Below are positions 48,714-57,810 of a stretch of 64,000 bases of DNA, piece after piece. Both the position numbers and the translations under genes were made by a program. The DNA is from Micromonospora globbae (GTDB lineage: Bacteria; Actinomycetota; Actinomycetes; Mycobacteriales; Micromonosporaceae): positions 248,001-312,000 of the forward strand of contig NZ_RAQQ01000001.1 of assembly GCF_003610785.1 (NCBI RefSeq), in the 5' to 3' direction. The notes beneath the pieces were generated by a model, which was not told the DNA's origin, did no database searches, and saw nothing but the letters and a program-made list of their open reading frames with translations. Each line of letters starts with the position of its first letter. Position 1 is the first letter of the stretch.

Positions 48714-49073
48714 TCACAGCACGTGGGACGACGGAAAGGGACCGACAGGGGCGGCCGCGCCAGATCGGATGAGCTCGATTCAACAGACTGCGATCGATGT
48801 GTGGAACGCGGACGCGGGCAATTGAGGAAATCTTGAGGCTGGCCGGGGCGGCGTCGGGGAGCTGGGTGGGGCCGTTTCCGGCTCGCGGAGCCGGGTGTCC
48901 CGCTACGCTGGGCGTGCGCCGGCAGGCCCCCACCGCGCGCGCCGGCCGACCGCCGGCCCGCCCGCGAGACCGCTGTCGCGTCCGCCCCACCTCACCCCTC
49001 ACGACCGCACGCGCGCTCCCGGTCGCCCCCGCGACCCCGGCGTCTCCAGGTGACGGGAAGGATGTGGAGTCCC
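48714..49073. other. Noncoding region between the M14 and redoxin genes
   Basis: 360 bases holding the promoter of the M14 gene and of the redoxin gene. I see no supported gene or long palindrome. Confidence 0.45.
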
Positions 49074-49139
49074 ATGTCGACGGCAGCGCTGGCGCCGACC
49101 GCGCACGACGTCCGGGCCGCCGCCCGGTCGCCGCGATGA
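49074..49139 (+). CDS. Short upstream reading frame coupled to the redoxin gene, possible
   Basis: ATG 49074 follows GGAG with five-base spacing and opens 21 codons (MSTAALAPTAHDVRAAARSP...) ending in a TGA that overlaps the redoxin ATG (ATGA). The redoxin has no ribosome site of its own, so this frame may carry ribosomes to it. Confidence 0.4.
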   Translation: MSTAALAPTAHDVRAAARSPR

Positions 49140-50032
49140 GCGACGACACCCCGCGGATCCCGCCGCTGGAGGTCGAGCGGTGGGTGAACTCCCCGCCGCT
49201 GACCCCCGAGGCGCTGCGCGGCCGGGTGGTGCTGCTCGACATCTGGGAGTACACCTGCGTCAACTGGATCCGCACGTCCCCCTATCTCAGGGCCTGGCAC
49301 CGGGACTACGCCGACCTCGGCCTGAGCGTCGTGGGCCTGCACGCTCCCGAGTTCGCGTTCGGCCGGGACGCCGCCACCATCGAGCGGGGCGTCCGGGAGC
49401 ACGGCCTCACCTACCCGGTCGCGCTCGACAACGACTTCCGGGTGTGGGAGGCCCTCGGCAACTTCGCGTGGCCGGCCCGGTACCTCTTCGACGCAGGCGG
49501 CAGGCTCGCCGCCCGGTGGATCGGCGAGGGCGAGTACGACCGGACGGAGGCGCGGATCCGCGAGCTGCTCGTCGACCGGGCGCCCGGCGTCGACCTGCCC
49601 CCGGTCACCCCGGAGGCCGCTCGGTTCGCCGCGACCGAGCAGCCGTCGTACGCCGACGTGACGGAGGAGACGTACATCGGCGCGGACCGGCGGGTGCCCG
49701 GCTCGGTACGCCTGTCCGGCGAGTGGCGGACGAGCGGTGACCACGTCGAGCTCGCCGGCGGCACCGGCGAGATCACCCTGCCGTTCAACGCCGGCGAGGT
49801 GAACCTCGTGGCCCATCCGGGGCCGTCCGGCCGGGCCGCCGTGCGGGTGCTGCTCGACGGGCGACCCCTCGACGGCGAGCGCGGCGCCGACGTCGACCCG
49901 GACGGGGTGGCGCACGTCGACCGGGCCGCCATGTTCCGGCTCGTCGCCGGCGCGTCGCGCGGCGACCGGGTGCTGACGCTCGTCACCGACCAACCCGGAT
50001 TCCGGGCGTACGTCTTCACCTTCGGCCCGTAG
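49136..50032 (+). CDS. Thioredoxin-fold redoxin (TlpA-like, single Cys)
   Basis: 298 residues. A thioredoxin-like domain (about 10-160) has VVLLDIWEYTCVNWIRTSPY in the place of the WCxxC loop, retaining one Cys (TCxNW), which is the pattern of the DipZ/YfcI-like AhpC-TSA redoxins. The C-terminal 120 residues are a DipZ-type jelly-roll (GEVNLVAHPGPSGRAAVRVL and VLTLVTDQPGFRAYVFTFG). No signal peptide is visible. Role in thiol or peroxide chemistry is likely but unproven. ATG 49136 overlaps the TGA of a 21-codon upstream frame. Confidence 0.82.
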   Translation: MSDDTPRIPPLEVERWVNSPPLTPEALRGRVVLLDIWEYTCVNWIRTSPYLRAWHRDYADLGLSVVGLHAPEFAFGRDAATIERGVREHGLTYPVALDNDFRVWEALGNFAWPARYLFDAGGRLAARWIGEGEYDRTEARIRELLVDRAPGVDLPPVTPEAARFAATEQPSYADVTEETYIGADRRVPGSVRLSGEWRTSGDHVELAGGTGEITLPFNAGEVNLVAHPGPSGRAAVRVLLDGRPLDGERGADVDPDGVAHVDRAAMFRLVAGASRGDRVLTLVTDQPGFRAYVFTFGP

Positions 50033-50162: not shown

Positions 50163-50207
50163 ACTTTCGTCGATGCCATAGATAGATTCTCGTCGTTCGA
50201 CGAAAGT
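50163..50207. promoter_or_regulatory. Perfect 11-bp inverted repeat upstream of the laccase operon
   Basis: ACTTTCGTCGA (50163-50173) faces TCGACGAAAGT (50197-50207) across 23 bases that include the AT-rich TAGATAGATT. It lies about 107 bases before the laccase start in the only promoter region of the four-gene operon, so it is a likely operator, or less likely a 5'-leader hairpin. Confidence 0.6.
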
Positions 50208-50313: not shown

Positions 50314-51315
50314 ATGGACGACCCTGCCCTCAGCTCACCCCGTCACCTGTCCCGCAGATCCCTGATGACCACCGGCGTGCTCGCCGCCGGAGCGATGGGC
50401 GTGGCCGCGCCCGCGGTCGGCACTCCCCTCACCGGTCCGGCACGAGCCAGCGCCGGGGTCACGAAGCGAGTCACCCTCTACGCCGAGCAGCTACCGGGCG
50501 GGCTGTACGGCTACGGCCTGGCACCAGGTCAGGCCACCGTGCCCGGCCCGGTGCTCGAGATGTACGAGGGTGACACCCTGGAGATCACCCTGGTCAACAC
50601 CACCAACCAGCGGCTGTCCATCCACCCGCACGGCGTGGACTACAGCACCGACTCCGACGGCAGCCCGCTCAACGCCTCCTACAACGATCCGGGCGAGACC
50701 CGCACGTACGTGTGGCGGTCCCGGGAGATGTTCGCGGCGTCGGGCCGACGGTTCATGCCGGGCAGCGCCGGCTACTGGCACTACCACGACCACGCCATGG
50801 GCACCGACCACGGCACGGCCGGGGTGGCCAAGGGGCTGTACGGCGCGCTGATCGTCCGCCGTCGCGGCGACATCCTGCCCGAGAAGCAGTTCACCGTCGT
50901 GTTCCACGACATGACGATCAACAACCGGATGGCGCCGGACACGCCGATGTTCGAGGCGAACCTGGGCCAGCGGGTGGAATGGATCGCCATCGGGCACGGC
51001 AACCTCTTCCACACCTTCCACCTGCACGCGCACCGGTGGGCCGACAACCGCACCGGAATGCTCGAGGGCCCCAGCGACCCGAGCCAGGTGATCGACAACA
51101 AGGACCTCAACCCGGGCAGCTCGTTCGGCTTCCAGGTGCTGGCCGGCGAGGGCGTCGGGCCCGGGGTGTGGATGTACCACTGCCACGTGCAGAACCACTC
51201 CGACGGCGGAATGGTCGGGCTCTTCCTGGTGCGCAACGCCGACGGCAGCATGCCGCCCGGCGCGGAGGAGGCGATCCACCGGTTCCGGGGCCACACCCAC
51301 CAGCACGGTCGATGA
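50314..51315 (+). CDS. Two-domain multicopper oxidase (small laccase), Tat-exported
   Basis: 333 residues. The Tat signal has SRRSLMTTGVLAAGAMG. All four copper motifs of a two-domain laccase are present: IHPHG, YWHYHDH, HTFHLHAH and YHCHVQNHSDGGM; the last two include the type-1 ligands (His, Cys, His, Met), so the mononuclear centre is in domain 2, as in SLAC from Streptomyces. Such enzymes form trimers with the trinuclear centre between subunits and reduce O2 while oxidising phenols or other donors outside the cell. It is the first gene of the operon; its TGA overlaps an ATG of the next gene. Confidence 0.93.
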   Translation: MDDPALSSPRHLSRRSLMTTGVLAAGAMGVAAPAVGTPLTGPARASAGVTKRVTLYAEQLPGGLYGYGLAPGQATVPGPVLEMYEGDTLEITLVNTTNQRLSIHPHGVDYSTDSDGSPLNASYNDPGETRTYVWRSREMFAASGRRFMPGSAGYWHYHDHAMGTDHGTAGVAKGLYGALIVRRRGDILPEKQFTVVFHDMTINNRMAPDTPMFEANLGQRVEWIAIGHGNLFHTFHLHAHRWADNRTGMLEGPSDPSQVIDNKDLNPGSSFGFQVLAGEGVGPGVWMYHCHVQNHSDGGMVGLFLVRNADGSMPPGAEEAIHRFRGHTHQHGR

Positions 51316-51332
51316 CGGAAGGGTGCACGGCG

Positions 51333-54300
51333 ATGACCAGAAACGTACGACGAGCGCTCGCCGCGCTGGCGGCGACCGCGACCCTGCTGCCGGCAACCAC
51401 GGCGGCAGCCGCACCACGGACCGCGCCGCAGGCGGCGCCGGACGACCCGACCAGGGTCCTCGTCTTCCACGGGCCCGCGGCGCAGCAGCAGGATCCCGTG
51501 GCCCGCGCCGTGGCGGCCATCAGGGACCTGGCCGCCGACCACGACATGGCGGTCACGGTCAGCACGGACCCGAAGGTGTTCACCCCGGCCGGCCTCGCGA
51601 GCTACCGCAGCGTGGTCTTCCTCTCCGCGACCGGCGCCGAGCTCAACCGTGAGCAGGAGTCGGCGCTACAGACCTACATGAAGGACGGCGGTGGCTTCCT
51701 CGGCATCGCCGACGCCGCCCGCGCCCAGGTCGACTCCACGTGGTTCACCGGCCTCATCGGCAGCCGCCCGGCCGGCGCCATCCCGGTCGCCGAGCCGGTG
51801 GCCCGGGTGACCGCGAGCGGCGAGAACCCGCCCAACGAGACGAAGGAGAAGCTGACCGACGGCGACTCCGGCACCAAGTGGCTCGCCCGGACGCCGACGG
51901 CCTGGGTCGCCTACGAGCTGAGCGCGCCCAAGCGGATCACCGGGTACGCCCTCACCTCGGCCAACGACTCCCCCGGGCGCGACCCGAGGGACTGGACGTT
52001 GCAGGGCTCGGCGGACGGCCAGAGCTGGACCGACCTCGACCGGCGGACGGGGCAGACCTTCGCCGAGCGCTTCCAGACCCGCCGGTTCGACATCGCCACG
52101 CCCCGGGAGTTCACGCACTACCGGCTCAACGTCACGGCGAACAGCGGCGAGCCCCTGACCCAGCTCGCGGACCTGCGGCTGTTCACGGACAACGCGATCC
52201 CGCCGCAGCGGCCTCCCGTGAACCGGGCAGTGGTCGACATCGTGGACCGGCACCACCCGGCCACCGCGTCGCTGCCGATGACGCTCACCCGGTCGGACCG
52301 CTGGGACAACTGGGACCCGAACCCCATCGGCACCGTCCACACGGTCGCCCAGGTGGAGGAACGCCACTACGACCCGGGCCCCGGCGCCAACGGTCCCTTC
52401 CACCCGGTCTCCTGGTGCCGGGACTACGAGGGCGGCCGGTCGTTCTACACCGGCATGGGCCACACCGAGGGCAGCTACGGCGAGGACGCCTTCCGCGCGC
52501 ACCTGGCCGGGGCCCTCGACTGGACGACCGGCCGCGTCCGCGGCGACTGCCAGGCGACGATCGCCGCGAACTACCGGATCGAGCGGCTGACCGCCGCCAA
52601 CCAGCCCGGCCAGCTCGACCAGATCGGCGAGCCACACGGGCTGACCATCGCGCCGGACGGCACCGTGTTCTACGTCGGCAAGGCCGCCTGCCCGACCGGC
52701 CCGATCCCCGACTGGGACGACCCGGACGTCGGCCTGGGCTGCGGCACCATCCACTCCTGGGATCCGCGTACCCGGCAGGTCAAGCTGCTCACCACCCTTC
52801 AGGTGATGGGCAACCGGGGCAGCGGCTCGGAGCTGGTGAAGAACGAGGAGGGGCTGCTCGGGATCGTGCCCGACCCCGCGTTCGCCGACAACGGATGGCT
52901 CTACGTGTACTGGATGCCGCACGAGTCGATCGACCGGGAGAAGCGGATCGGGCAGCGCACCATCTCCCGGTTCACCTACGACCGGCAGGCGCAGACCATC
53001 GACCAGGCCACGCGCAAGGACCTGCTGCGGTTCCCGGTGCAGATCCACAGCTGCTGCCACGCCGGCGGCGGGATGGCCTTCGACGCCGAGGGCAACCTGT
53101 ACGTGGGCTCCGGGGACAACAACTCCTCCGAGGGCTCGCAGGGCTACTCCGGCAACAACTGGACCCGGGAGTACGCGGGCATCTCGTTCCAGGACGCCCG
53201 CCGCACCTCGGGGAACACCAACGACCTCGCCGGCAAGATCATCCGGATCCACCCGGAGCCGGACGGCACGTACACCATCCCGGAGGGCAACCTGTTCCCG
53301 CCGGGCACCCCGAAGACCCGGCCGGAGATCTACGTGATGGGCGTACGCAACATCGCCCGCCTCCAGGTCGACCCGGAGCGCCAGTGGCTGACCGCCGGCT
53401 GGGTGGGCCCGGACGCCTCGTCGCCGAGCCCGGAACTGGGTCCGGCCAAGTACGAGACGGCCACCATCATCACCTCCGCCGGCAACCAGGGCTGGCCGTA
53501 CTGCATGGGCAACCGGCAGCCGTACCGCGACCGCAGCAACACCGACGCGAGCGTGCTCACCGGCTGGTACGACTGCGACAACCTGCGCAACGAGTCCCCG
53601 CGCAACACCGGCCTGGTCGACATCCCGCCCGCGCGGGACAACATGATCTGGTACTCCCCCGACGGCGGCGGGCCGGTCTTCCCGAAGCGCGCGGACGGCA
53701 GCGGCCTCCCGACGTACGTGGCCGCCGACGCCACCTACACCCAGCCGTACCTGCGGGGCGGCGGGCAGGCCGTCATGTCCGGTCCGACGTACCACCGCGA
53801 CCGGGTCGACACCGGCAGCGGCGTCGCCTGGCCGGAGCACTGGGACGACAAGTGGCTCATCGGTGACCAGTCGAACGCCAACAACCGGGTGGCCGTCACC
53901 GTCGACCCGGCCGGCGTGCCGCGCGCCGAACCGCCGGTGTTCGCCGAGTCGCTGCGGGCCATCATCCCCGGCGGCAACGGCGACAACCGCCTGCAGAGCT
54001 GGATGGACGCCAAGTTCGGGCCGGACGGCGCCCTCTACATGCTCGACTACGGCGGCGGGTTCTTCAGCCTGCACCCCAACCAGAAGCTCGTCCGTGTCGT
54101 CTACACGGGTGGGGCGCCGACTCCGGCGCCGGCCGCGAACGCGGTGGCCGTCCAGAACAAGCCGTTGACCATGGCCTTCACCGGCTCCCGCTCGGGCGGC
54201 GTCAGCTACCGCTGGGAGTTCGGCGACGGCGCGACGTCGACCGAGGCGAACCCGCGGCACACGTACGCCCGGGTCGGCACCTACCCGGCGAGCCTGACGG

Positions 54301-55262
54301 TCCGCTACGCCGACGGCGAGACGGCCACGGTGCGGACCACGGTCACGGTGGGCTGCGCGGTGCCGGACCGGCGGGAGACCGTCTGGCTCGGCGACACCGA
54401 CACCGGGGTGCCGAGCCGCACGGTCGGGCAGGGCTGCACGGCCAACGACCTGATCGACGACGAGAGCACCTGGCCGAGCCACGACGCCTTCGTGCGGCAC
54501 GTCACCACGGTGGCCCGCGCGTTGCAGGACGACGGCCTGCTCACCGGCCGCGAGGTCGGCACGCTGACCCGCCTGGCCGCCGGCTCGCCGATCGGCCGGG
54601 AGGGGCACACGGGGTACGAGCCGCTCTTCGACGGCACGGCCGGGTCGCTGCGCGGCTGGCAGCAGGCGCCGTCCGGGTCGTTCGGCATCCAGCCGGACGG
54701 GTCGCTGCGGTCCAGCGGCGGGCTGGGCATGCTCTGGCACACCAGGGAGCTGGCCGACTTCTCGCTGAAGCTCCAGTTCCGGGACATCGCGCCGGGCACG
54801 GGCCGCGCCAACAGCGGGGTCCTCACCCGGTTCCCCGATCCGCGGATCCCGCTGGAGGAGCGCCCGCCCGGCAGTTGCGGCACCGTCGGGTCGGCCCGCA
54901 CCTCACCGGCGTGGGTGGCCATCTACTGCGGCCACGAGATCCAGATCTACGACGGTGAGAGCGGCGAGCCGCAGAAGACGGGCTCGGTCTACAACTTCGA
55001 CCCGGTGCCGCTCGCCCAGGCCGGCGCCACCCCGAAGGAGCAGTGGAACGACTACGAGATCCGGGTCGTCGGGCAGCACTACACGATCGTCCGCAACGGC
55101 GTGGTGATCAACGAGTTCGACAACACCCCGGGCAAGCAGTCCTCGCGGGCCGGTGACCCGCCGACCGACCTGCGGCAGTTCCTCCGCGGCTTCGTCGGGC
55201 TGCAGAACCACGGCGACAACGACCTGATCGAGTTCCGCAACATCCGCGTGCGCGAACTCTAG
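51333..55262 (+). CDS. Secreted ThuA / discoidin / PQQ-type sugar dehydrogenase / PKD / DUF1080 protein
   Basis: 1,309 residues. Signal peptide 1-27; ThuA fold about 38-155 and 296-406, interrupted by an F5/8-type C (discoidin) insertion about 165-289 (TAWVAYELSAPKRITGYALT); glucose/sorbosone dehydrogenase propeller about 414-929 (EPHGLTIAPDGTVFYVGK, SCCHAGGGMAFDAEGNLYVG); PKD 933-1005; an unnamed 80-residue module 1008-1088; DUF1080 (LamG-like) 1092-1309. ThuA and DUF1080 families are tied to 3-keto-sugar breakdown, and the propeller type uses PQQ to oxidise sugars. ATG 51333 has GGAAGG upstream; ATG 51312, overlapping the laccase stop, is the alternative. Precise activity is inferred. Confidence 0.88.
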   Translation: MTRNVRRALAALAATATLLPATTAAAAPRTAPQAAPDDPTRVLVFHGPAAQQQDPVARAVAAIRDLAADHDMAVTVSTDPKVFTPAGLASYRSVVFLSATGAELNREQESALQTYMKDGGGFLGIADAARAQVDSTWFTGLIGSRPAGAIPVAEPVARVTASGENPPNETKEKLTDGDSGTKWLARTPTAWVAYELSAPKRITGYALTSANDSPGRDPRDWTLQGSADGQSWTDLDRRTGQTFAERFQTRRFDIATPREFTHYRLNVTANSGEPLTQLADLRLFTDNAIPPQRPPVNRAVVDIVDRHHPATASLPMTLTRSDRWDNWDPNPIGTVHTVAQVEERHYDPGPGANGPFHPVSWCRDYEGGRSFYTGMGHTEGSYGEDAFRAHLAGALDWTTGRVRGDCQATIAANYRIERLTAANQPGQLDQIGEPHGLTIAPDGTVFYVGKAACPTGPIPDWDDPDVGLGCGTIHSWDPRTRQVKLLTTLQVMGNRGSGSELVKNEEGLLGIVPDPAFADNGWLYVYWMPHESIDREKRIGQRTISRFTYDRQAQTIDQATRKDLLRFPVQIHSCCHAGGGMAFDAEGNLYVGSGDNNSSEGSQGYSGNNWTREYAGISFQDARRTSGNTNDLAGKIIRIHPEPDGTYTIPEGNLFPPGTPKTRPEIYVMGVRNIARLQVDPERQWLTAGWVGPDASSPSPELGPAKYETATIITSAGNQGWPYCMGNRQPYRDRSNTDASVLTGWYDCDNLRNESPRNTGLVDIPPARDNMIWYSPDGGGPVFPKRADGSGLPTYVAADATYTQPYLRGGGQAVMSGPTYHRDRVDTGSGVAWPEHWDDKWLIGDQSNANNRVAVTVDPAGVPRAEPPVFAESLRAIIPGGNGDNRLQSWMDAKFGPDGALYMLDYGGGFFSLHPNQKLVRVVYTGGAPTPAPAANAVAVQNKPLTMAFTGSRSGGVSYRWEFGDGATSTEANPRHTYARVGTYPASLTVRYADGETATVRTTVTVGCAVPDRRETVWLGDTDTGVPSRTVGQGCTANDLIDDESTWPSHDAFVRHVTTVARALQDDGLLTGREVGTLTRLAAGSPIGREGHTGYEPLFDGTAGSLRGWQQAPSGSFGIQPDGSLRSSGGLGMLWHTRELADFSLKLQFRDIAPGTGRANSGVLTRFPDPRIPLEERPPGSCGTVGSARTSPAWVAIYCGHEIQIYDGESGEPQKTGSVYNFDPVPLAQAGATPKEQWNDYEIRVVGQHYTIVRNGVVINEFDNTPGKQSSRAGDPPTDLRQFLRGFVGLQNHGDNDLIEFRNIRVREL

Positions 55263-55270
55263 GAGACGGC

Positions 55271-56794
55271 ATGAACAGACGACTGACAGCGGTGCTGGCC
55301 GCCCTCCTGCTCGCGGTGCTCCCGATGGCCGGTGGGTCCGCCACGGCCGCCCCGCGCGTCGCCGAGCAGGTGCTGACCTGGACCGCCGACGACGACATCA
55401 CCCGCTACAAGTCCGCGCCCACCCAGGTCGTGGCCGGCCAGACGACGATCGTCTTCGAGAACAGCGCGGCCACCGGCAACACCACCGGTATGCCGCACAC
55501 GTTGACGTTCGACACCACCACGGAGGGCTACAACCACGACGTCACCGTGAACATCCTCGCCAACCCGTACGACCCGAGCGACGGGCGGCACGAGGTGACC
55601 GTGACCCTGAGCCCCGGCCGCTACCGCTACTTCTGCGCCATCCCCGGCCACGACCAGATGGTCGGTGAACTGGTGGTGACCGACGGCGGCGGCACCGACA
55701 CCACACCGCCCGAGGTGGCCGCCACGGTCAGCGGCGACCGCGACCAGGACGGCAACTACGTCGGCGCCGCCACGGTGACCGTGACGGCCACCGACGCGGG
55801 GTCGGGGGTGGACACCGTCGAGTACCAGGTCGACGACACGAGTTTCCAGCCGTACACCGCGCCGGTGCGGGTCACCGCCGTCGGCGACCACTCGGTGCAG
55901 TTCCGGGCCACCGACCACGCCGGCAACACCAGCGAGGTCGGGTCGGTGTCGTTCCGGGTCGTCGAGCCCGGCGAGGAGGACACCACCCCGCCGGTGGTGA
56001 CCGCCGACCTGGCCGGCGAGACGGACGGCGACGGCAACTACGTCGGTACGGCCACCGCCACGCTGACCGCCACCGACGACCGGTCCGGGGTCGCGTCGAT
56101 CGAGTACTCGCTCGACGGGGCCGCCTTCACCGCGTACACCGCGCCGGTCGTGGTCGACGAGCCGGGGACGCACATGCTGCACTACCGCGCCACCGACGTC
56201 GCCGGCAACACCTCGGCGGAGCGGATGGCCCACTTCACCGTGGTTCCCCCGCCGGTGGAGGACACCACCCCGCCGACGGTCTCGGCCACGGTCACCGGGG
56301 AGCGGGACGAGAACGGCGGGTACGTGGGCGTCGCGACGGTGACGGTCACGGCGACCGACGACGACTCCGGAGTCGCGCGCGTCGAGTACGCGCTCGACGC
56401 CGGTGGCTGGACGACGTACGCCGGGCCGCTCTCCGTCCGCGCCACCGGCGCCCACACCCTGCGGTACCGGGCGACCGACGCCGCCGGGAACACCTCCGCC
56501 GAGCAGTCCGTGACGTTCACCGTGGTCTCCGACGGCACCGACGCCTGCCCCGGGTCGGACACGCGGGACACGGTGGTCGTCGACGGTGACGACACCGGGG
56601 TGGCCAACGTCGACACCGGCAACGGCTGCACGATCAACGACCTGATCGACGAAGGCGCCGCGTACCCGAGCCACGCGGCCTTCGTCCGCCACGTCGAGAC
56701 GGTCACGGCCACCCTCGTGACCGCCGGCACCCTGACCAAGCGGCAGCAGGGCGCCATCGTCCGGGCCGCGGCCCGATCGGACATCGGCGCATGA
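55271..56794 (+). CDS. Secreted cupredoxin with three Ig-like (OmpL47-type) repeats
   Basis: 507 residues. Signal peptide 1-27. A cupredoxin domain about 30-137 keeps the type-1 copper ligands: His in MPHTLTF and Cys, His, Met in YFCAIPGHDQM. Three repeats of about 94 residues follow, starting near 143, 237 and 331, each opening DTTPP and holding VTVTATDxxSGVxxVEY and HxxxxRATDxAGNTS. The last 83 residues (TRDTVVVDGDDTGVANVDTG to the end) match the unnamed module of the preceding protein. It lies 8 bases after that gene, so co-translated. A role as electron carrier or copper-binding scaffold for the laccase/dehydrogenase is inferred. Confidence 0.9.
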   Translation: MNRRLTAVLAALLLAVLPMAGGSATAAPRVAEQVLTWTADDDITRYKSAPTQVVAGQTTIVFENSAATGNTTGMPHTLTFDTTTEGYNHDVTVNILANPYDPSDGRHEVTVTLSPGRYRYFCAIPGHDQMVGELVVTDGGGTDTTPPEVAATVSGDRDQDGNYVGAATVTVTATDAGSGVDTVEYQVDDTSFQPYTAPVRVTAVGDHSVQFRATDHAGNTSEVGSVSFRVVEPGEEDTTPPVVTADLAGETDGDGNYVGTATATLTATDDRSGVASIEYSLDGAAFTAYTAPVVVDEPGTHMLHYRATDVAGNTSAERMAHFTVVPPPVEDTTPPTVSATVTGERDENGGYVGVATVTVTATDDDSGVARVEYALDAGGWTTYAGPLSVRATGAHTLRYRATDAAGNTSAEQSVTFTVVSDGTDACPGSDTRDTVVVDGDDTGVANVDTGNGCTINDLIDEGAAYPSHAAFVRHVETVTATLVTAGTLTKRQQGAIVRAAARSDIGA

Positions 56795-56826
56795 CGTATC
56801 GAACCTCACCCACAGGGAGTACCGCG

Positions 56827-57810
56827 ATGCCCAGACGTACCGTCACCAAGCTGGCCACCGTGAGCGCCGTCGTCGCCGGCTCGTTGCTGGTGGTGGCGCC
56901 CAGCGCGCACGCCGACCTGGTCACCCACTGCGTCGGCACCGGCGGCGCCGTGACGGTGCCCAACGACCTGCTGGTGCCCGCCGGCAAGTCCTGCACGCTC
57001 ACCGGCACGACGATCACCGGCAACGTGAGCGTCGCGGCCGGCGCGAACCTGGTGGTCGTCGGCGGCAACGTCAGCGGCGAGGTGCGCGTCGCCGCCGACG
57101 GCTACCTGGACGCCACCGACACCACCATCGGCGGTCAGGTCGTGCTGGCCGCCGGCGGGTACGGCGCGTTCCTCAGGGACGCGCGCACCGGCGCCGTGAC
57201 CGTGCGACCGAAGGGTTCGGCGACCATCGACAGCTTCCTCTTCGTGGAGGGGTCGACGATCGCCGGCAACGTCGTCGTCGGGGCCGGGGAGGTCCGGCTC
57301 GACCGCAACACCCAGGTGGAACGCAACGTCAACAGCACCGGCACCTACTACACCGACGTGCACGACTCGTTCGTCGACGGCACCCTGTCGGTGCTCAACA
57401 GCAGCACCGGGAGCGTCGTCTGCGGCAGCGCGGTCCGCGGGCGGGCGACCTTCGCCGGCAACCTGGGTGGCGTGCAACTGGGACCGAACGGCACCCTCGA
57501 CAGCTGCGCCTCCGGCGGCTACTGGGGCCGGGACGTGAGCATCAGCAGCACCACGGGCGGCGTCATCGTCGACGACAACATCATCGACGGCCAGTTGGCC
57601 CTCACGGCCAACGACCCGGTCGCCCAGGTGGCCGCCAACAACCGGATCCGCGGTGGCGTGACCGGTGACCAGGCGGGCGCCACGACCACGTCCCGGACGG
57701 CCCGGGCCGCGGCCGCCGCCGACCGGGAGGACGCCGGAGAGCAGCGGGCGCAGGCCCGCCGCGCCTCGGCGGTGCAGGAGGCCGCCGCGGCCGGCGTCGC
57801 GCGGCTCTGA
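56827..57810 (+). CDS. Secreted beta-solenoid repeat protein
   Basis: 327 residues. Signal peptide 1-33 (VSAVVAGSLLVVAPSAHA). The mature protein is built of short rungs such as TITGNVSVAAGANLVVVGGN, VSGEVRVAADGYLDATDTTI and TIAGNVVVGAGEVRLDRNT, the pattern of a parallel beta-helix as in bactofilins. The last 45 residues are Ala/Arg-rich and unstructured. It resembles the tails of the LVIVD and NucH-UshA proteins in rung style but not in detail. ATG 56827 has GGGAG eight bases upstream; ATG 56791 overlapping the cupredoxin stop is also in frame. Last gene of the operon; a surface scaffold is the simplest guess. Confidence 0.85.
   Translation: MPRRTVTKLATVSAVVAGSLLVVAPSAHADLVTHCVGTGGAVTVPNDLLVPAGKSCTLTGTTITGNVSVAAGANLVVVGGNVSGEVRVAADGYLDATDTTIGGQVVLAAGGYGAFLRDARTGAVTVRPKGSATIDSFLFVEGSTIAGNVVVGAGEVRLDRNTQVERNVNSTGTYYTDVHDSFVDGTLSVLNSSTGSVVCGSAVRGRATFAGNLGGVQLGPNGTLDSCASGGYWGRDVSISSTTGGVIVDDNIIDGQLALTANDPVAQVAANNRIRGGVTGDQAGATTTSRTARAAAAADREDAGEQRAQARRASAVQEAAAAGVARL

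Follow-up and report, generated by a model that had tools for sequence, protein, structure and literature searches.

Small laccases and described glycoside-oxidising systems

Small, two-domain laccases of the SLAC family (e.g. 3cg8, 4m3h, 3t9w and 9ix9) are heavily studied as biotechnological enzymes. They oxidise phenols (PMC3527528; PMC8236229), and what they do physiologically is described as poorly understood or unknown (PMC13151041, 2026; PMC3527528, 2012). The accessible parts of PMC13151041 and PMC3527528 describe them as lignin- or dye-active and make no mention of the gene neighbourhood reported here. This neighbourhood lies in a stretch of 64,000 nucleotides (contig NZ_RAQQ01000001.1, positions 248,001 to 312,000; hereafter the window) of the 7.09-Mb genome of Micromonospora globbae, in which four same-strand open reading frames (ORFs) at 50314-57810 encode a small laccase (gene 1), a large fusion protein with ThuA, glucose/sorbosone dehydrogenase (GSDH) and PF06439 domains (gene 2), a cupredoxin (gene 3) and a beta-solenoid protein (gene 4). 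The first three genes are conserved together across actinobacterial genera, and their products very probably work together in one secreted sugar-oxidising system. We read the locus, with a probability of about 0.55, as encoding a secreted system for oxidative glycoside processing whose electrons pass through copper proteins to O2.

Two described 3-keto-glycoside pathways come close to parts of the locus and likely follow the same logic: oxidise, cleave, import and reduce. The Caulobacter LacABC pathway shares with it the PF06439 domain. As far as the accessible text goes, PF06439 proteins act as 3-keto-glycoside hydrolases, and other members include an endo-xanthanase/lichenase (PMC9007349). 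The Agrobacterium operon comprises a C3 glycoside dehydrogenase (GlycDH), two isomerase-like enzymes (the beta-eliminase OGE and a putative hydratase) and a Gfo reductase (PMC10628242, available part); isomerase-like TIM barrels and Gfo/Idh/MocA proteins are likewise encoded in a subset of the loci related to ours. In contrast to LacABC and the flavoenzyme GlycDH, the locus has a GSDH propeller as the putative dehydrogenase, secreted fusions, and copper proteins in place of other acceptors.

The GSDH domain of gene 2 has the six-bladed propeller fold of the PF07995 family. This fold and the equivalents of His144, Arg228 and Asn229 are shared with soluble dehydrogenases dependent on pyrroloquinoline quinone (PQQ; 1c9u, 3das) and with the fungal AA12 pyranose dehydrogenase. 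The AA12 enzyme CcPDH additionally combines a cytochrome b, as carrier domain, with a carbohydrate-binding module (PMC5960967, available part). Unlike these enzymes, gene 2 lacks the Arg-x-Arg motif, has a vicinal Cys-Cys before the His, and contains large inserts as well as fused ThuA and PF06439 domains. A plasmid-encoded protein of Runella slithyformis (Bacteroidota; L164:4917-7508) belongs to the same GSDH clade and, as in gene 2, continues with a PKD domain. Its domain order is GSDH-PKD-cytochrome c-CBM6 (PF00034, E 1.4e-8, one C-x-x-C-H); it differs from gene 2 by the fused cytochrome c, which stands for the separate cupredoxin, and has no Cys-Cys before the His. No laccase is present among the seven genes listed for the 11.6-kb Runella stretch, the gene table of which is incomplete. 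Relatives of this GSDH thus have either a fused cytochrome c or a neighbouring cupredoxin, which points to a one-electron carrier in two forms.

All protein families of the locus are known. Their combination was not found in the literature searched, most subscription journals and all preprints being outside its reach; this agrees with a sequence-only reading of the same DNA, whose author knew no described system with this combination.

A conserved three-gene core

The four genes are:

50314..51315, plus strand: gene 1, two-domain (small) laccase with a Tat-type leader as judged by eye (PF07732/PF07731)
51333..55262, plus strand: gene 2, secreted fusion of ThuA (with F5/8 type C insert), GSDH, PKD, an unnamed module and PF06439; alternative start at 51312
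55271..56794, plus strand: gene 3, secreted protein made up of a cupredoxin domain, three OmpL47-type repeats and the shared module of about 80 amino acids (PF00127 and NF047446)
56827..57810, plus strand: gene 4, secreted beta-solenoid protein, accessory

A species-level genome collection yielded 190 relatives of gene 2, and the counts out of 80 loci given here rest on the best 80. These loci span Micromonospora, Actinoplanes, Saccharothrix, Umezawaea, Kibdelosporangium, Amycolatopsis, Streptomyces, Nonomuraea, Isoptericola and others. A laccase was detected by tblastn in 79 of the 80 and a cupredoxin in 77, and wherever a partner was missed (L097, L114, L116) the contig ends on the side concerned. 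The most frequent arrangement has the laccase upstream and the cupredoxin downstream on the same strand (57/80). The cupredoxin lies upstream on the opposite strand in ten loci and upstream on the same strand in seven, two loci show a divergent laccase, and in one both the laccase and the cupredoxin are downstream; the remaining three, at contig ends, are without laccase and/or cupredoxin. Since the trio is kept through five arrangements, we regard this as strong evidence for a shared function. The functional link between dehydrogenase, cupredoxin and laccase that the sequence-only reading had proposed is therefore supported by joint conservation across actinobacterial genera, and the trio, found in many genera in shuffled orders, is not confined to this strain. 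Its four genes as a unit were not supported as a general feature: the conserved core consists of the laccase, the ThuA-GSDH fusion and the cupredoxin, and gene 4 is accessory, a solenoid being detected in 42 of the 80 loci only (tblastn E ≤ 1e-8; strong divergence elsewhere is possible).

Laccase relatives (E ≤ 1e-40) were sought in an evenly spread set of 296 class genomes (the even sample), and gene 2 (E ≤ 1e-150) was searched in the 42 laccase-bearing genomes plus two PqqC-bearing genomes without laccase. Gene 2 was present in 41 of the 42 and in neither of the two laccase-free genomes. Within 2255 bases of a gene-2 match lay 45 of the 53 laccase matches, from 41 of the 42 genomes, and each of the 42 gene-2 matches had a laccase within 3 kb. 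Four further GSDH loci of the M. globbae genome (L127-L130, 13-19 kb each) served as a control and contained no laccase and no cupredoxin at E ≤ 1e-4. According to these conservation counts, the grouping of the genes is far beyond chance. Such a near-constant partner makes the physiological role of small laccases directly testable, and the conserved neighbours suggest a role in an extracellular sugar-oxidising pathway.

Gene 1 consists of two multicopper oxidase domains (PF07732/PF07731) in which the type 1 (T1) and T2/T3 copper ligands are present. Among solved structures it matches small/two-domain laccases best (e.g. 3t9w, 450 bits), dozens of which are among the matches. On sequence and copper ligands it is assigned to the well-known SLAC family, a point that the sequence-only reading had missed. 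The laccase of a Streptomyces-type cluster (L134) closely resembles 4m3h (593 bits) as well as 3cg8 (588 bits), with 5lhl in the range of 588-593 bits, and that of the Streptomyces mexicanus cluster (L102) is almost identical to 9ix9 (684 bits across 314 residues). Gene 3 encodes a plastocyanin-type cupredoxin, whose His-Cys-His-Met set we take to be typical of type-1 electron-transfer copper; none of the four ligands varies in the 96 loci scored. Intact copper ligands in genes 1 and 3, as claimed before, were thus found again: 12 of 12 listed positions in the laccase and His, Cys, His and Met in the cupredoxin, the assignment of the ligand residues in both proteins being presumably that of their families.

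The propeller, its cofactor and the proposed electron path

Pfam searches gave the domain order ThuA split by F5/8 type C, GSDH, PKD, an unnamed module of about 80 amino acids and PF06439 for gene 2. The features within genes 2 and 3 are:

51807..52145, plus strand: F5/8 type C insert in ThuA (PF00754, residues 166-278; the ThuA match is in two parts, the best of them at 300-405)
52602..54116, plus strand: GSDH beta-propeller (glucose/sorbosone dehydrogenase, PF07995)
53052..53060, plus strand: Cys-Cys-His, vicinal Cys before the His aligned with the catalytic His144 of soluble glucose dehydrogenase; 97/97 loci scored
53346..53351, plus strand: Arg-Asn, aligned with Arg228/Asn229 of soluble glucose dehydrogenase; 97/97 loci scored
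53997..54008, plus strand: Ser-Trp-Met-Asp, where the canonical aldose dehydrogenase of the same genome (L151) has Arg-Leu-Arg-Ala
54354..54596, plus strand: module of about 80 amino acids of gene 2, common to gene 3 (51% identity over 81 amino acids)
54612..55253, plus strand: PF06439 3-keto-disaccharide hydrolase domain (E 6.7e-33; formerly DUF1080)
55349..55690, plus strand: cupredoxin domain of gene 3 (ligands His 55496, Cys 55634, His 55649, Met 55658)
56546..56788, plus strand: shared module of about 80 amino acids at the C-terminus of gene 3

With the catalytic His and the Arg-Asn pair kept, the propeller is probably an active dehydrogenase. A PF06439-type match follows GSDH in gene 2 in all 80 loci, with a second occurrence in nine of them. 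This domain suggests that 3-keto-glycosides are handled and that a bound glycoside, rather than a simple aldose, would be oxidised. The sequence-only reading, which proposed sugar oxidation, had named the domain DUF1080 and missed this pointer to 3-keto-glycosides.

In the mechanism that we propose, the carbohydrate-binding and ThuA parts of gene 2 would hold the glycoside, the GSDH propeller would oxidise a sugar hydroxyl, C3 of the bound glycoside being the likeliest position, and the PF06439 domain would then cleave the resulting 3-keto-glycoside. Electrons would leave the propeller singly and pass over the cupredoxin to the small laccase, which would reduce O2 to water. In species with neighbouring importer, isomerase and Gfo/Idh/MocA genes, the keto-sugar would be imported and reduced. 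The cupredoxin is somewhat more probably than not the electron acceptor of the propeller, the laccase has an even chance of being the final oxidase, and oxidation at C3 in particular falls slightly short of even. Reported potentials of two-domain laccases are 0.35-0.45 V (PMC8236229, available part), so that electrons from a sugar dehydrogenase would probably flow downhill. If the mechanism is true, copper proteins and O2 can sustain extracellular 3-keto-glycoside chemistry, in the place where the Bacteroidota relative fuses cytochrome c. More tentatively, the main natural role of small laccases might then be not lignin breakdown but the O2-reducing end of a secreted glycoside-cleaving machine, whose dehydrogenase would use a modified cofactor site (lost PQQ arginines, vicinal Cys-Cys at the catalytic His) unseen in characterised quinoproteins.

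A number of observations weigh against this reading of the locus, and its weakest steps are the cofactor, the position oxidised and the cupredoxin-to-laccase transfer. The C-terminal arginines of PQQ sugar dehydrogenases have roles in contacting the PQQ carboxylates (PMC6881789, available part). The canonical Arg-x-Arg is missing in 32 of 32 aligned sequences, one of six paralogues keeping a single Arg, and by eye it is missing from the Runella protein as well. Its place is taken by Ser-Trp-Met-Asp in 26 of 26 gene-2-type alignment rows, the register being set by eye on the following Pro-Asp-Gly. The genome of M. globbae has no PqqC match and only weak PqqE matches (55 bits against a cut-off of 381), and PqqC over the cut-off was not found in 37 of the 41 sampled gene-2 carriers. 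PqqC over the cut-off in six of the 296 class genomes, five of them of one genus, served as a positive control for this search. An enrichment of PqqC among carriers (Fisher p 0.004) was not used as evidence, because the gene-2 search covered part of the 296 genomes and because of this bias of the PqqC genomes towards a single genus. The earlier assignment as a PQQ dehydrogenase is thus in doubt: the His144, Arg228 and Asn229 equivalents are kept, the Arg-x-Arg is lost, and the same genome shows no PqqC or PqqE over the cut-off. We lean slightly towards PQQ as the cofactor, acquired from the surroundings in most species.

In solved soluble PQQ glucose and aldose dehydrogenases, the carbon oxidised is the anomeric one and not C3. 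The literature searched gave no data on the activity, binding or expression of gene 2 or gene 3, and the accessible portions of PMC9007349 and PMC10628242 mention no copper acceptor. The cupredoxin-to-laccase transfer is a weak step because in type-B two-domain oxidases, SLAC-like ones included, the T1 copper faces a tunnel at the trimer centre, which would make docking of a cupredoxin harder, and one type-B oxidase of another superfamily was reoxidised slowly by O2 (PMC13151041, available part). Among the 104 laccase matches of related loci, His156 of the trinuclear-site motif differs in 12 (Trp in nine, Gln in two, Asn in one), the second His of the T1 motif (His295) is replaced in four, and one change each occurs at His236, His238, Cys290 and Met300; these are alignment-column counts, and narrower regular expressions gave 104, 92, 100 and 97 of 104 for four motifs. 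The nine Trp156 laccases are of a diverged second-copy type that includes one from the same genome (L126), which reads Trp-Trp-Tyr-His-Asp-His where gene 1 reads Trp-His-Tyr-His-Asp-His, the Trp being confirmed by sequence. O2 reduction by these second-copy laccases is in doubt as judged from the replaced residue, and the window copy is unaffected. Since they lack one copper ligand, our confidence in the laccase as final oxidase was lowered slightly, from just above even. Furthermore, eight of the 53 laccase matches in the even sample have no gene 2 nearby (three in G075, two each in G145 and G198, one in G087). The regions inspected cover six of these eight, those in G198 being left out: two (L147, L148) have tandem small laccases with a cupredoxin beside them and no gene 2, and the other two (L149, L150) have no cupredoxin. 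A Streptomyces plasmid laccase likewise has neither gene 2 nor a cupredoxin within 7 kb.

The main rival explanation, which we consider unlikely, has the laccase accept no electrons from the cupredoxin and instead oxidise small phenols to quinones or radicals that the dehydrogenase would reduce back, as mediator recycling or to counter repolymerisation during lignocellulose attack, a role that has been proposed for fungal sugar dehydrogenases. It would leave the invariant cupredoxin without a role, and the Bacteroidota relative has a protein carrier, its cytochrome c, in the same chain. The phenol oxidation by small laccases speaks in its favour (PMC3527528, PMC8236229), as do the T1 copper in the trimer-centre tunnel (PMC13151041) and a fungal PQQ dehydrogenase that drives lytic polysaccharide monooxygenases, free PQQ being able to act as a redox mediator (PMC5960967), as far as the available parts of these sources go.

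It is distinctly improbable that the cupredoxin delivers copper to the laccase while the ThuA-GSDH-PF06439 protein acts independently on glycosides, the genes lying together through co-induction on plant material. The tandem-laccase loci with a cupredoxin and no gene 2 would fit such a delivery function; the complete His-Cys-His-Met set, presumably of the type-1 electron-transfer kind, and the same three genes kept through five arrangements do not. Less probable still is a propeller without redox function, serving as a binding or lyase domain like that of Hedgehog-interacting protein, which shares the propeller fold without PQQ. Against it stand the catalytic His and the Arg-Asn pair, neither of which varies in the 97 loci scored, the cytochrome c carried by a relative, and the copper redox proteins encoded next to the propeller in the sampled genomes. 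Oxidative glycoside processing with a copper electron path remains the reading that we prefer.

Variant clusters, pathway neighbours and other features

In 18 of the 41 gene-2 genomes of the even sample, all from one genus (g42, probably Streptomyces), gene 2 is shorter (ThuA-GSDH, frames of about 830-900 amino acids). In all eight Streptomyces-type loci looked at (L131-L138, the S. coelicolor SLAC locus being left out), the laccase is divergent and gene 2 is followed on the same strand by the cupredoxin and then by a PF06439-type match. According to Pfam, the cupredoxin and PF06439 form one protein of 755 amino acids in L132. A Streptomyces fungicidicus replicon shows the same arrangement, with a cupredoxin-PF06439 gene (Pfam) followed by a LacI regulator. 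In a haloarchaeon, Natronococcus, PF06439 is fused directly to GSDH. The non-actinobacterial relatives come from a plasmid collection only, in which one Bacteroidota and one archaeal protein were assigned by Pfam and a Gemmatimonadota match was used for motifs only.

A second copy of the locus, missed in the sequence-only reading, is present elsewhere in the genome of M. globbae itself (L126; G000:C15:7257-16829). Its gene 2 is 71% identical to that of the window, its diverged laccase shows 43-50% identity, and it also encodes a cupredoxin-repeats-PF06439 fusion and a PF01261 TIM barrel. Regarding a cytochrome c in actinobacteria, the called ORFs of L126-L130 contained no C-x-x-C-H. An Actinoplanes relative (P0021) bears the name 'cytochrome C', which looks carried over, as no heme motif was seen by eye. 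Another locus of the same genome (L128; G000:C16:35000-54000) combines two GSDH proteins with a ThuA-PF06439-lectin protein and two isomerase-like TIM-barrel genes. It appears to be a different kind of oxidative glycoside locus, one that lacks copper proteins.

A TIM-barrel (PF01261) gene was found in 17 of the 80 loci and a Gfo/Idh/MocA gene in nine; the two TIM-barrel copies inspected by eye start with a Tat-like leader. Amycolatopsis and several Streptomyces loci contain ROK regulators and sugar-type ABC transporter genes. By analogy, these isomerase-like, Gfo, ROK and ABC neighbours in a subset of loci appear to resemble the Agrobacterium C3-oxidation operon (PMC10628242, available part). 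Counting against the proposed pathway, the isomerase-like and Gfo genes were not found in the 64-kb window at E ≤ 1e-4.

The module of about 80 amino acids shared by genes 2 and 3 has no Pfam family over the cut-off and is possibly a docking or wall-association domain. For gene 4 no Pfam or NCBIfam match was obtained. Its AlphaFold model is a regular beta-solenoid (mean predicted local distance difference test score, pLDDT, 85.1 and mostly >90 after residue 40; predicted template modelling score, pTM, 0.81), for which Foldseek found no PDB relative at E ≤ 0.001. The fold named in the sequence-only reading is thereby confirmed; its use as a general scaffold was rejected on the locus count given above.

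The closest relatives of gene 2 are from Micromonospora. Four genes in one direction with tight spacing, each with a Tat or Sec signal, had been reported before; the coordinates were confirmed, with gaps of 17, 8 and 32 bases at the preferred starts, and the leaders, judged by eye without a predictor, agree (twin-arginine in gene 1, Sec-like in genes 2-4). The alternative start of gene 2 at 51312 would overlap gene 1, and its product has 1309 or 1316 amino acids depending on the start. For gene 4 the ATG at 56827 was preferred over the listed start at 56791 because GGGAG lies just 5' of this ATG. An upstream gene (48797-50032) encodes AhpC-TSA and thioredoxin-like C-terminal (PF17991) domains and lies outside the families common to most of the 80 loci.

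Upstream of the laccase gene lies one further feature:

50163..50207, no strand assigned: perfect 11-nucleotide inverted repeat with 23 nucleotides between the arms, candidate operator

The cores of the arms (CTTTCG/CGAAAG) are found upstream of the laccase at an exact spacing of 37 nucleotides in 14 of 18 window-type Micromonospora loci (L043-L057, L077, L095, L122) and in L059. The 37-nucleotide core spacing is not general in the other loci, in which it is less frequent or absent (16 sequences aligned). The repeat occurs as the only exact copy in the genome, with 0 expected in shuffles of the window.

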